A DNA stretch of 45,898 bases, from contig PWXL01000132.1 in NCBI GenBank assembly GCA_003561145.1, positions 1-45,898 on the forward strand, given 5' to 3'. A model generated the notes under the pieces. The model saw only the letters and a program-made list of their open reading frames with translations. It ran no database searches and was not told the origin of the DNA. This stretch comes from Candidatus Atribacteria bacterium. GTDB taxonomy: Bacteria > Atribacterota > Atribacteria > Atribacterales > Atribacteraceae. Positions 9,168 to 12,967 of the stretch are shown here, in pieces (positions within the stretch are counted from its first letter, which is position 1; each line of letters begins with the position of its first letter). The position numbers and the translations under genes are program-made.

Positions 9168-9524
9168 ATGACGTTGCAGGAAATCAAGGATATTTTAGAA
9201 GCTGAAGTACTGGTTGGCGGGAACAAGGATCTGAAAGCAGAACCTTCATCGGCCTGCGGAAGCGACCTCTTGAGTGATGTGTTGGCTTTTTCCAAGGAGA
9301 GGTCCCTGCTGTTGACAGGATTGACAAACCCTCAGGTGATTCGCACAGCTGAAATGAGCGACCTGATAGGCATTGTTTTTGTAAGGGGGAAGCGTCCGGA
9401 TTCTGCCACACTCGATTTGGCCGGAGTGAAAAAGATCCCTATATTGGCTCCCCGCCTCCCCATGTATGAAGCATGTGGGAGGTTGTATCGAAGTGGGATC
9501 AGAGGGTGCAGCGAAGTGAAGTGA
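9168..9524 (+). CDS. DRTGG-domain protein (first of two)
   Basis: About 118 aa resembling stand-alone DRTGG proteins (CGSDLLSDVLAF...GIVFVRGKRPD...IPILAPRLPMYEACGRLY); gene context. Confidence 0.65.
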   Translation: MTLQEIKDILEAEVLVGGNKDLKAEPSSACGSDLLSDVLAFSKERSLLLTGLTNPQVIRTAEMSDLIGIVFVRGKRPDSATLDLAGVKKIPILAPRLPMYEACGRLYRSGIRGCSEVK

Positions 9525-9988
9525 TGGCAGACCGTGACCCTCTTTATGAAGTATCCAGAGAAATAGTGGGAGCTGATTTTCAGAGTTCCGGGGATATCTC
9601 GGGAGAGCTGAAAAAGATATTGCTCCAGGCGGGATTCCCGCCTCCTTTTATCCGCCGAATTGTTATTGCAGCTTATGAAGCTGAAATGAACGTTGTGATT
9701 CATGCTTTCAAGGGAACATTTACCACGGTGATTTATCACGACAAGGTACATATCAACATCAATGATGAAGGACCTGGTATACCGGATCTGGAATTGGCCT
9801 TTCAGGAGGGGTATTCGACGGCTCCCCCTCATGTCCGTGAGTTGGGTTTTGGTGCTGGGTACGGCCTCTCAAACATGAGAAAATGTTCAGATGCCCTGGA
9901 AATCGATTCCCGTGTTGGAGTGGGAACCCGGGTAAGCATGGATTTTTTAGTCAACTCACAAAGAGATGGTGCTGAAGTTGAGAAATGA
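9524..9988 (+). CDS. RsbW/SpoIIAB-like ATP-binding (HATPase_c) protein
   Basis: N-box AAYEAEMNVVIHA, G1 NDEGPGIPD, G2 GAGYGLSNMRK; no DHp domain; ATG at 9524 overlaps the upstream stop (TGATG). Confidence 0.85.
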   Translation: MADRDPLYEVSREIVGADFQSSGDISGELKKILLQAGFPPPFIRRIVIAAYEAEMNVVIHAFKGTFTTVIYHDKVHININDEGPGIPDLELAFQEGYSTAPPHVRELGFGAGYGLSNMRKCSDALEIDSRVGVGTRVSMDFLVNSQRDGAEVEK

Positions 9989-11354
9989 TTTTTTTCATTC
10001 TGTTCTCCTTGATGAAGAAAAATGCAAGGGATGTACACATTGCATTCGCCGGTGTCCCACAGAGGCTATTCGGGTCAAGGGTGGAAAAGCGAGGATAGAT
10101 GAGGAACGATGCATAGACTGTGGTGAATGTATACGTACCTGTCCGAACCATGCAAAATATGCCCAAACAGATCCACTGGATGCCATTCAGCGGTTCAAAT
10201 ATTCTATTGCTCTTCCTGCACCTGCCTTCTATCCCCAGTTTCCACCAAGCATATCTATAGGCAAGCTTATTAACGGATTATTGAGTCTTGGATTTCATGA
10301 GGTATTCGAAGTAGCGAGGGGAGCAGAAATACTCGCTGAAGAAATTAAAAAATATCTTTTGTCAAAGGATATACCCAAACCGGTTATCTCTTCAGCTTGT
10401 CCGGCTGTAGTCAGGATGGTCGAAGAGAAGTTTCCTTCACTCACCGGAACCTTGCTTCCCCTTGATACCCCCTTGGGTATAGCTGCACATACTGCGCGGT
10501 TACGCGCCATGAAAAAAGGCTACCACTCGGAAGAGGTAGGCGTTTTTTTCATTACCCCCTGTCCGGCGAAGGTGACGGAAGTGAGGCAAAGCAGTGACGA
10601 TAAGGGCAGGATTGATGGTGCGATTTCCATTTCCCAGGTCTATTCCCGCATCATAAATATACTGGATGAGCTCGATGAACAGTCAAGCCTGCAGCTGGCA
10701 AGCTGGAAAGGAATCGGCTGGGCCCGTTCAGGAGGAGAACAGGAATCTCTCAATGAAGGGGAATATGTGGCAGTGGATGGAATCCACAATGTGATGTCTG
10801 TGTTTGAAAAGATTGAAATGGGAGAATTATCAGGCGTTCTGTATTGTGAAGCCCAAGCGTGTGTGGGGGGATGCATCGGTGGGGTTCTGGGCGTGCAGAA
10901 CCCTTTCTTGTCCAAGGTTAATGTTCAGCAACTGGTTAAAAAATACCCTGCATATCGCGAGTTGGAGGATCGTGAGTGGAAGGAGCTGGTTCGGGAAAGA
11001 GTTTTCCTTCGCCGCCATCCTTTCGTGGCAAGTGACGTTTTAAAGCTTGATACCGATTATCGTAAGGCATTAGAGAAATATCAGACTATTGAGAATATAT
11101 TGGAAAACCTTCCCGGTCTTGACTGTGGAGCTTGCGGTTCTCCCACCTGCCGGGCGCTGGCAGAGGATGTGGTTCGTGAAAAAGCACAAGAGATAGATTG
11201 TCCGTTTTTACTTCGTGAAAAAATGCTTGGATTGTCCCGGGAGATCTTTGACCTTGCAAGCAAGGTTCCCCAAACCATGAATGAAGAAAGGGGAATGCAA
11301 AAAATTGAAAGTAATCCAGATCGTGGAACCTCTGAAGGCAAAAGTGGTGGTTAA
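9966..11354 (+). CDS. [FeFe]-hydrogenase-family protein, HydS-like putative sensor, with C-terminal CX2CX4CX16C Fe-S motif
   Basis: Two N-terminal 4Fe-4S motifs (CKGCTHCIRRCP, CIDCGECIRTCP); H-cluster-like L1 SSACPAV, L2 TPCPAKVTE, L3 EAQACVGGCIGG; C-terminal DCGACGSPTCRALAEDVVREKAQEIDC. Confidence 0.85.
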   Translation: MVLKLRNDFFHSVLLDEEKCKGCTHCIRRCPTEAIRVKGGKARIDEERCIDCGECIRTCPNHAKYAQTDPLDAIQRFKYSIALPAPAFYPQFPPSISIGKLINGLLSLGFHEVFEVARGAEILAEEIKKYLLSKDIPKPVISSACPAVVRMVEEKFPSLTGTLLPLDTPLGIAAHTARLRAMKKGYHSEEVGVFFITPCPAKVTEVRQSSDDKGRIDGAISISQVYSRIINILDELDEQSSLQLASWKGIGWARSGGEQESLNEGEYVAVDGIHNVMSVFEKIEMGELSGVLYCEAQACVGGCIGGVLGVQNPFLSKVNVQQLVKKYPAYRELEDREWKELVRERVFLRRHPFVASDVLKLDTDYRKALEKYQTIENILENLPGLDCGACGSPTCRALAEDVVREKAQEIDCPFLLREKMLGLSREIFDLASKVPQTMNEERGMQKIESNPDRGTSEGKSGG

Positions 11355-11658
11355 GGGGGATTTAGGGGAGACAGAAATAACCGGAGGCTATTGTGGAGAC
11401 CTCCTGAGTGATTGTATAGCCAACGCTACCGAAGGGAGTGGATGGATCACTATACAATCACACCCCAATACCGTGGCGGTGGCTGTTCTGGTAGGTATGG
11501 CCTGTATTGTTGTGACAAACAGTCAGGATATTGGGGAACCCACTGTCCAGCGTGCCGTGAAAGAAGGGGTAACGCTTTTAAGCACGCCACTTACCAGCTA
11601 CCAGGCGGTGGCGGTACTTTCAGGGCTTGGGGTTCCGGGCACCAGGAAGCATGGGTGA
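11281..11658 (+). CDS. DRTGG-domain protein (second of two)
   Basis: YCGDLLSDCIANA...IVVTNSQDIGEPTVQRAVKEGVTLLSTPLTSYQAV; TTG at 11305 is an alternative start. Confidence 0.7.
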   Translation: MKKGECKKLKVIQIVEPLKAKVVVKGDLGETEITGGYCGDLLSDCIANATEGSGWITIQSHPNTVAVAVLVGMACIVVTNSQDIGEPTVQRAVKEGVTLLSTPLTSYQAVAVLSGLGVPGTRKHG

Positions 11659-12391
11659 GAGGACATTCCGCGCAGATCTCCATATTCATTCTGTTTTATC
11701 ACCCTGTGCCGAACGAGAGATGCTCCCACACTGCATTGTGCTCGAGGCGGTGGAAAAGGGTCTGGACATTATCTCAGTAACCGATCATAATAGCGCTGAA
11801 AATGTCGCCGTAACGGTGGCGCTGGGCAACCGTTTCGGTGTGTGGGTAATCCCTGGTATGGAAATTGAGACGCGGGAAGAAGTTCACCTTTTATGCTTTT
11901 TCCCCTCTCTGAAAGAACTGAACGGCTTTGCCGGTTTCATTTCCGAACACCTTCAGAGGCTTTCCCTTGACGAGAACCTGTGGGGGCAGGAGTGGGTCAT
12001 CGATGTGGAGGGCGAAATAAAGGAAAAAAAAGATTACCTGCTTACCCATACACTGAATCTTTCCCTGGAGGACGTATGTAAGAATGTTTACAGTGGAGGG
12101 GGTGTTGTCATTCCCTCTCATGTAGACCGTACCGCCTACAGTATCATTCATGTCCTCGGCTTCATTCCTCCCCAATTACCGATACAGGCTGTGGAAGTTT
12201 CCCGCCGCACATCAACTCAAGAAGCCATTGCAACCCTGAATCTAGAGGGGTATGCAATTCTACGTTTTTCCGATGCCCATTCCTTAACCGACGTAGGCTC
12301 TGCGTATTCAACATTGTATATGGAGGCAACCCGCTGGGAAGAATTCAAAATGGCTCTCGAGGGAAAGAAGGGCCGAAGGGTCACCTCTTGA
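11651..12391 (+). CDS. PHP-domain metal-dependent phosphoesterase-like protein
   Basis: ADLHIHSVLSPC, SVTDHNSAEN, GMEIETREEVHLLCFF, IPSHVDR, SDAHSLTDVG. Confidence 0.88.
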   Translation: MGERTFRADLHIHSVLSPCAEREMLPHCIVLEAVEKGLDIISVTDHNSAENVAVTVALGNRFGVWVIPGMEIETREEVHLLCFFPSLKELNGFAGFISEHLQRLSLDENLWGQEWVIDVEGEIKEKKDYLLTHTLNLSLEDVCKNVYSGGGVVIPSHVDRTAYSIIHVLGFIPPQLPIQAVEVSRRTSTQEAIATLNLEGYAILRFSDAHSLTDVGSAYSTLYMEATRWEEFKMALEGKKGRRVTS

Positions 12392-12535: not shown

Positions 12536-12967
12536 ATGTTTTTGGGACAGTATCAACATTCCGTTGATAGCAAGGGAAGGATTATCATCCCCAACGAATT
12601 CAGGAAAGAACTCTCTGCCACCCTGTATCTTACCCGGGGATTGGAGAATTGCATATTTGTGTTCAATCAGGATGTCTGGGAAAAGCTGTATCAGGGGATT
12701 GCCTCCCTGCCCCTGACTCGCAAAGAAGGACGCAGTTTCTCCCGTGTATTCCTGGCCAACGCCTCCTCAACCAATCTCGATTCCCAGGGAAGGATCATGC
12801 TTCCCCGTTCCCTCCGTGATTATGCCCACATTGAAAAAAACTCCATGATCGTTGGAGTAGGCACAAGAGTTGAAATTTGGTCGGAAGATGTATGGAAGAG
12901 TTACTCAGATGATGTACAGGAGAAGTTCGAGGAGATAACCGAGGGCATCATTGATTCAGGCATTTGA
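12536..12967 (+). CDS. mraZ: Transcriptional regulator MraZ
   Basis: MFLGQYQHSVDSKGRIIIPNEFR and second AbrB-like half STNLDSQGRIMLPRSLR; precedes rsmH. Confidence 0.95.
   Translation: MFLGQYQHSVDSKGRIIIPNEFRKELSATLYLTRGLENCIFVFNQDVWEKLYQGIASLPLTRKEGRSFSRVFLANASSTNLDSQGRIMLPRSLRDYAHIEKNSMIVGVGTRVEIWSEDVWKSYSDDVQEKFEEITEGIIDSGI

Follow-up and report, generated by a model that had tools for sequence, protein, structure and literature searches.

The DNA analysed here (the window) is a stretch of 45,898 nucleotides (nt) from a Candidatus Atribacteria bacterium, contig PWXL01000132.1 of GCA_003561145.1, a metagenome-assembled genome of 1.86 Mb in 277 contigs that is 78% complete (G000). Upstream of mraZ and the dcw cluster it carries a cassette of five genes, encoding in order a DRTGG protein (DR1), an ATPase resembling SpoIIAB and RsbW, an [FeFe]-hydrogenase, a second DRTGG protein (DR2) and a PHP phosphoesterase (Table 1). 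Five tightly packed or overlapping open reading frames (ORFs) with these identities had been proposed from the sequence alone (the original prediction). All five are indeed open, neighbours sharing 1, 23, 74 and 8 nt in order when DR2 is read from the ATG at 11281, and the identities were borne out by Pfam, alignment and structure checks, the hydrogenase being specifically of group D. The TTG is the likelier start of DR2 because its relatives begin at that residue and AAAGGGG lies upstream. In Pfam searches DR1 matched DRTGG with 25.9 bits (cut-off 25.2), the ATPase matched HATPase_c and HATPase_c_2 with 39.2 and 37.0 bits, and the hydrogenase matched Fe_hyd_lg_C (109 bits) and the FeS domain PF04060 (50 bits), plus Fer4 domains. 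Two matches fell slightly below the cut-off, DRTGG in DR2 (24.0 bits) and PHP in the phosphoesterase (23.8 bits, cut-off 26.4); the first is backed by the alignment of DR2 with DR1 and by the motif they have in common, the second by kept metal-ligand motifs and a PHP fold.

Table 1. Genes of the five-gene cassette, with coordinates in the window
Gene	Product	Length (aa)	Coordinates	Strand	Evidence
DR1	Stand-alone DRTGG protein	118	9168..9524	+	Pfam; invariant D33 and S36; AlphaFold2 model
ATPase	SpoIIAB/RsbW-like GHKL ATPase, probable serine kinase	154	9524..9988	+	Pfam; SpoIIAB match; invariant residues
Hydrogenase	Group D (M2e) putative sensory [FeFe]-hydrogenase, no PAS domain	462	9966..11354	+	Pfam; TamHydS residue mapping; tree
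DR2	Second DRTGG protein; probable start TTG 11305 (ATG 11281 possible)		11305..11658	+	Pfam; invariant residues
PHP	PHP-family metal-dependent phosphoesterase	246	11651..12391	+	Invariant metal-ligand motifs; AlphaFold2 fold

By its sequence, the central protein of the cassette is a group D (M2e) [FeFe]-hydrogenase of the TamHydS kind. The H-cluster cysteines (C145, C199, C299 and C303 in its own numbering) and the lysine equivalent to Lys358 of CpI (K202) are present and invariant in 80 loci, and the residue equivalent to C299 of CpI is replaced by Ala (A144). TamHydS, from Thermoanaerobacter mathranii, has the same domain layout, no PAS domain and the same replacement of C299 by Ala (PMC8163306, PMC10407848, PMC13104023). 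With TamHydS positions taken from PMC10407848 and PMC13104023, the offset from TamHydS to the cassette hydrogenase is constant, at 6 in the N-terminal part and H-domain and 8 in the C-terminal domain. Residue mapping found C20, R30, K35, R42, K58, S249, E252, D265 and E289 of TamHydS all kept, as well as D378, C379, S384, E392, D393, D403 and C404; the sole mismatch among the signature residues is R32, which is Lys here. The likeness covers the group D proton pathway (E252, E289, S249 and D265 of TamHydS are E258, E295, S255 and D271 here), the conserved charged residues, the C-terminal Cx2Cx4Cx16C cluster (C387, C390, C395 and C412, within a PF04060 match) and the HATPase neighbour. The two proteins differ at the positions of M353 and M497, where TamHydS has Ser and Leu and the cassette hydrogenase has Thr and Gln, both common in the group D set, and in their surroundings, TamHydS lying beside group A hydrogenase genes and the Atribacterota cassette before mraZ instead. 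Group C HydS proteins (TmHydS, R. albus HydS, HfsB) have the H-domain, the C-terminal FeS domain and the proposal of a sensor role in common with the cassette hydrogenase. They possess a PAS domain, whereas Pfam detected none in the cassette protein, which therefore does not qualify as a group C HydS.

In a hydrogenase tree that did not include TamHydS itself, the Atribacterota sequences stand together (100/100) among Bacillota sequences of the same type, and the source genome's own group C and group A hydrogenases fall outside the group D-type set. HydF scored above its cut-off in G005, G010 and G012 and not in G000 or in G001, of the same genus, both of which are about 80% complete and have other hydrogenases. 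A 2024 study of Atribacterota gives [FeFe] groups A3 and C only (PMC11227167), and group D sequences have been drawn out of group C of the Greening scheme (PMC10407848). The TamHydS type has been purified and studied, with sensor-like biochemistry and its HATPase neighbour noted (PMC8163306), and an AraC-family regulator has been named beside TamHydS (Land et al.). The proposal that the Fe-S protein of the cassette senses H2 or redox state is well supported, insofar as it belongs by sequence to this kind of hydrogenase.

Among solved structures the best match of the cassette ATPase is SpoIIAB. Its N-box Glu and Asn (E52, N56) and the residues of its DxGxG motif (D81, G83, G85) are invariant in 33/33 aligned homologues, and it scores far under the equivalog cut-offs of both SpoIIAB (51 against 135 bits) and RsbW (25 against 145). 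The conserved residues suggest that it is most likely a serine kinase. In three Bacillota loci (L073, L104 and L110, from Tepidanaerobacter, Tepidanaerobacteraceae and Thermosediminibacteraceae) DR1 and the ATPase form a single ORF, which argues for direct contact between the two proteins. In another locus (L048:613-1518) a CBS-CBS-HATPase fusion takes the place of the plain cassette ATPase.

DR1 and DR2 have in common an Asp-x-x-Ser motif, which is D33 and S36 in DR1 (invariant in 26 homologues) and D40 and S43 in DR2 (numbered from the ATG at 11281; invariant in 33 homologues). This motif was not seen in AF1212 or in the ordinary DRTGG protein that the source genome encodes on contig C54. 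AF1212 and the CBS-DRTGG family II pyrophosphatases have the DRTGG fold in common with DR1, and the cassette proteins differ from them in consisting of a DRTGG domain alone, in having the motif and in missing the GDR segment of ordinary DRTGG domains. The AlphaFold2 model of DR1 (mean predicted local distance difference test, pLDDT, 95.5) has a DRTGG fold, with a template modelling (TM) score of 0.83 to the DRTGG structure 2ioj, and S36 is placed in it where a strand gives way to a helix, at the helix start. STAS proteins carry their phospho-serine in a conserved loop (PMC8256260), to which the position of S36 may be likened by analogy only; a STAS-like fold for DR1 was considered and rejected, as Foldseek returned DRTGG and HprK N-terminal domains instead. 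In the last protein of the cassette the PHP metal-ligand residues (HxH, TDH, E, H, H, D/H) are invariant in the family alignment, and the AlphaFold2 model (pLDDT 97) has a PHP fold. Its nearest folds are EndoQ, RNase AM, TM0559 and the CV1693-type AMP-binding PHP protein (2yb1), with which it has the metal-ligand motifs in common and only about 13-20% identity.

The five genes are co-conserved, so that the original prediction withstands a refuting condition it had set, a lack of co-conservation in other genomes. Every one of the 25 Atribacterales genomes searched has the cassette, its ATPase included, with a hydrogenase 68-87% identical in the 24 other genomes of the order; elsewhere in the phylum the 25 genomes searched gave only distant hydrogenases and no cassette hydrogenase gene. 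Wherever the short fetched Atribacterales loci reach, the order SPOR, DR1, ATPase, hydrogenase, DR2, PHP, mraZ is kept, and two single-contig genomes, over 7-8 kb each, have valS, SPOR, cassette, mraZ and rsmH. A scan of named genomes, in which the nearest named relatives of the source genome were Candidatus Atribacteria and Ca. Caldatribacterium, as befits a member of Atribacterota, gave 80 hydrogenase loci. Among 56 non-Atribacterota loci with full flanks, 44 contain the complete set of five genes, 42 of them as an uninterrupted run in the cassette order. Recurrence of the gene order across Atribacterales and most Bacillota loci indicates that the cassette did not arise by chance. The non-Atribacterota cassettes are nearly all from Bacillota, where the cassette usually lies upstream of group A hydrogenase genes, with other Fe_hyd_lg_C proteins following within about 8 kb, in line with the original remark that related neighbourhoods occur near [FeFe]-hydrogenase genes in anaerobes. 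In Moorella sulfitireducens, for example, the order is cassette, thioredoxin-like 2Fe-2S protein, second HATPase, 2Fe-2S protein, NuoF-like protein and HydA, and in Parabacteroides distasonis the cassette is followed, as judged by profile matches, only by a second HATPase. No NuoE, NuoF or HydA genes follow the cassette in the window, as had been remarked; the other Fe_hyd_lg_C genes of the source genome are on contigs C101 and C152. Distance matrices of gene pairs from the non-Atribacterota loci are correlated (r 0.89-0.95, Mantel p 0.001), as expected of genes that travel together. Atribacterota form one clade in a tree made up mostly of Bacillota, and the gene is missing from the remainder of the phylum, which would fit a single acquisition of the cassette hydrogenase by the ancestor of Atribacterales.

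Some loci have peculiarities of their own. Another Fe_hyd-type ORF, of about 640-650 amino acids (aa), lies within about 2 kb downstream in L054, L057 and L063. The P. distasonis record of L144 (NZ_OY725779.1) is labelled a plasmid; with gyrA on it, it looks like part of a chromosome. In its cassette hydrogenase the C299 position is Phe and the ligand cysteines are kept. One Atribacterales genome has two near-alike group D copies (G023:C68 and G023:C74), which are probably from mixed strains, the contamination of this assembly being 8%.

Established partner switching relies on a serine phosphatase and on a GHKL kinase with a STAS protein as substrate (PMC8256260). STAS (PF01740) was found in 0 of 12 good Atribacterales genomes and in 3 of 25 genomes of the order overall, and PF13466 was missing in 4 of 5 genomes tested; the STAS search works, because control genomes gave positives. 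The suggestion that the ATPase takes part in sigma/anti-sigma partner switching through STAS is therefore not supported. The source genome is an exception, with two STAS-containing ORFs of 115 and 808 aa on contig C43 (L115). This contig further carries a SpoIIE protein and a strong RsbW-type HATPase, and the STAS/SpoIIE/RsbW-type set, which was not found in the congener G001, is either acquired or on a stray contig (the GC content is similar, 0.475). A SpoIIE phosphatase is present in 25/25 Atribacterales genomes and adjoins a group C HydS in every one: in the source genome a HydS of 571 aa with a PAS domain is directly followed by a SpoIIE-type phosphatase (L003, G000:C152:6708-10394), and loci L116-L140 hold the pair as well. 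A Ser/Thr phosphatase partner has likewise been described for R. albus HydS (PMC6776011). Atribacterales thus resemble the RsbW/SpoIIAB-STAS-SpoIIE systems (PMC8256260) in having a SpoIIAB-type ATPase with kinase residues and a SpoIIE-type phosphatase elsewhere in the genome, and differ from them in that the good genomes are without STAS and have DRTGG proteins in the putative operon instead. This arrangement, in which both arms of a switch, kinase and phosphatase, are present without STAS, each beside a sensor-type hydrogenase, is the most suggestive of our findings, and the two arms might meet on the DRTGG proteins.

Our preferred reading, which we hold with moderate confidence, is that the five genes form a self-contained H2- or redox-sensing cassette. 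The hydrogenase would bind H2 at its H-cluster, whose state H2 or the redox state would set, as the biochemistry of TamHydS suggests; because its proton-relay Cys is Ala, the hydrogenase would be built slow, and so would serve as a gauge rather than as a metabolic enzyme. A conformational change would pass from it to the ATPase, which, as a likely serine kinase, would act on its direct partner DR1 and perhaps on DR2. The two DRTGG proteins would hold the place of STAS in a partner switch, with the Ser of the D-x-x-S motif as candidate phosphorylation site, and the PHP protein would return the signal to its starting state or alter it, by removing phosphate either from the DRTGG proteins or from a nucleotide that they bind. 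For Bacillota, the most obvious candidate for the output is the hydrogenase operon next to the cassette. An extension of this model, which we consider unlikely at present, is that two hydrogen sensors drive opposite arms of one STAS-less, H2-gated switch, in which the cassette kinase would phosphorylate DR1 S36 and DR2 S43 and the SpoIIE phosphatase on the group C side would reverse it.

Several points weigh against the sensing cassette. To our knowledge, H2 sensing in cells has been shown for no group D hydrogenase. The DRTGG fold returned by Foldseek for the DR1 model is not that of STAS, and our literature search found no reports of DRTGG phosphorylation. The three DR1-ATPase fusion loci belong to one clade in the tree, so that the fusions may be a single event, and the matrix correlations owe part of their strength to shared species history. 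In addition, five loci (L046, L053, L054, L057 and L063) have the ATPase and the group D hydrogenase only, with no detectable DRTGG or PHP gene, which indicates that these partners are not always needed. Finally, H2 fails to reduce the C-terminal cluster of TamHydS (PMC13104023).

The alternative that survives best, although we think it unlikely, is a nucleotide-signal module, in which an adenine nucleotide or dinucleotide is bound by the DRTGG proteins and hydrolysed by the PHP protein, redox and energy state being reported by the hydrogenase and ATPase without any protein phosphorylation. The nearest fold of DR1, the CBS-DRTGG region of a regulated pyrophosphatase, the nearest folds of the PHP protein, which are nucleotide- or nucleic acid-cleaving PHP enzymes, and the CBS-CBS-HATPase fusion of L048 all point in this direction. 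However, the GDR segment is missing from the cassette DRTGG proteins, and the conserved kinase residues would be left unexplained. We regard as improbable a slow metabolic or redox-buffering hydrogenase that the other four genes assemble or regulate locally, with no signalling output: all H-cluster ligands are kept, and TamHydS works in both directions at a low rate (PMC8163306, PMC6984386), but C299 is lost and the cassette has no electron-transfer subunits, being accompanied instead by a kinase-like ATPase and DRTGG proteins. Classical switching, in which the ATPase holds a sigma factor captive and its kinase substrate is a STAS antagonist encoded at another locus, would account for the structural match to SpoIIAB and for a SpoIIE-type phosphatase in every genome of the order; given the near absence of STAS and the low equivalog scores of the ATPase, we consider it very doubtful. 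A functional tie to cell division through the position before mraZ and the dcw cluster is hardly credible, even if the SPOR and mraZ neighbours are kept in Atribacterales wherever the loci reach, as the same cassette lies before hydrogenase genes elsewhere or by unrelated genes in Parabacteroides, and the position before mraZ looks like inherited synteny because the cassette has other neighbours outside Atribacterota.

In the window as a whole the only Rfam match is a tRNA (2457-2539), and the repeat search gave nothing notable. To judge from the sequence, mraZ probably starts at the ATG at 12536, with GGGGGAGG upstream, 144 nt past the PHP stop codon. The promoter and terminator scan found no more sites than in shuffled sequences.

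The original prediction regarded this system as insufficiently described, which is fair for the cassette and less so for the hydrogenase, whose type has already been studied as TamHydS (PMC8163306). In the open literature we found neither a description of the five-gene unit nor a link between DRTGG proteins and sensory hydrogenases; subscription papers were outside the scope of this search, and priority is uncertain. The type of sensor hydrogenase is known, then, and its wiring, which comprises a phosphoesterase, two DRTGG proteins and a kinase of anti-sigma-like type, has received almost no study. The DRTGG motif, the location ahead of mraZ in Atribacterota and a genomic background free of STAS have apparently not been described before. 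How sensory [FeFe]-hydrogenases relay their signal is an open question, raised for group D by the authors of the TamHydS work (PMC8163306), and group D enzymes are without even a PAS domain. The conserved cassette points to four specific partners and to two serines as candidate phosphorylation sites; with these named, and with a STAS-free background in Atribacterota, the question becomes testable. If the DRTGG proteins are indeed the partners of the kinase, a common and poorly understood domain would gain a function.

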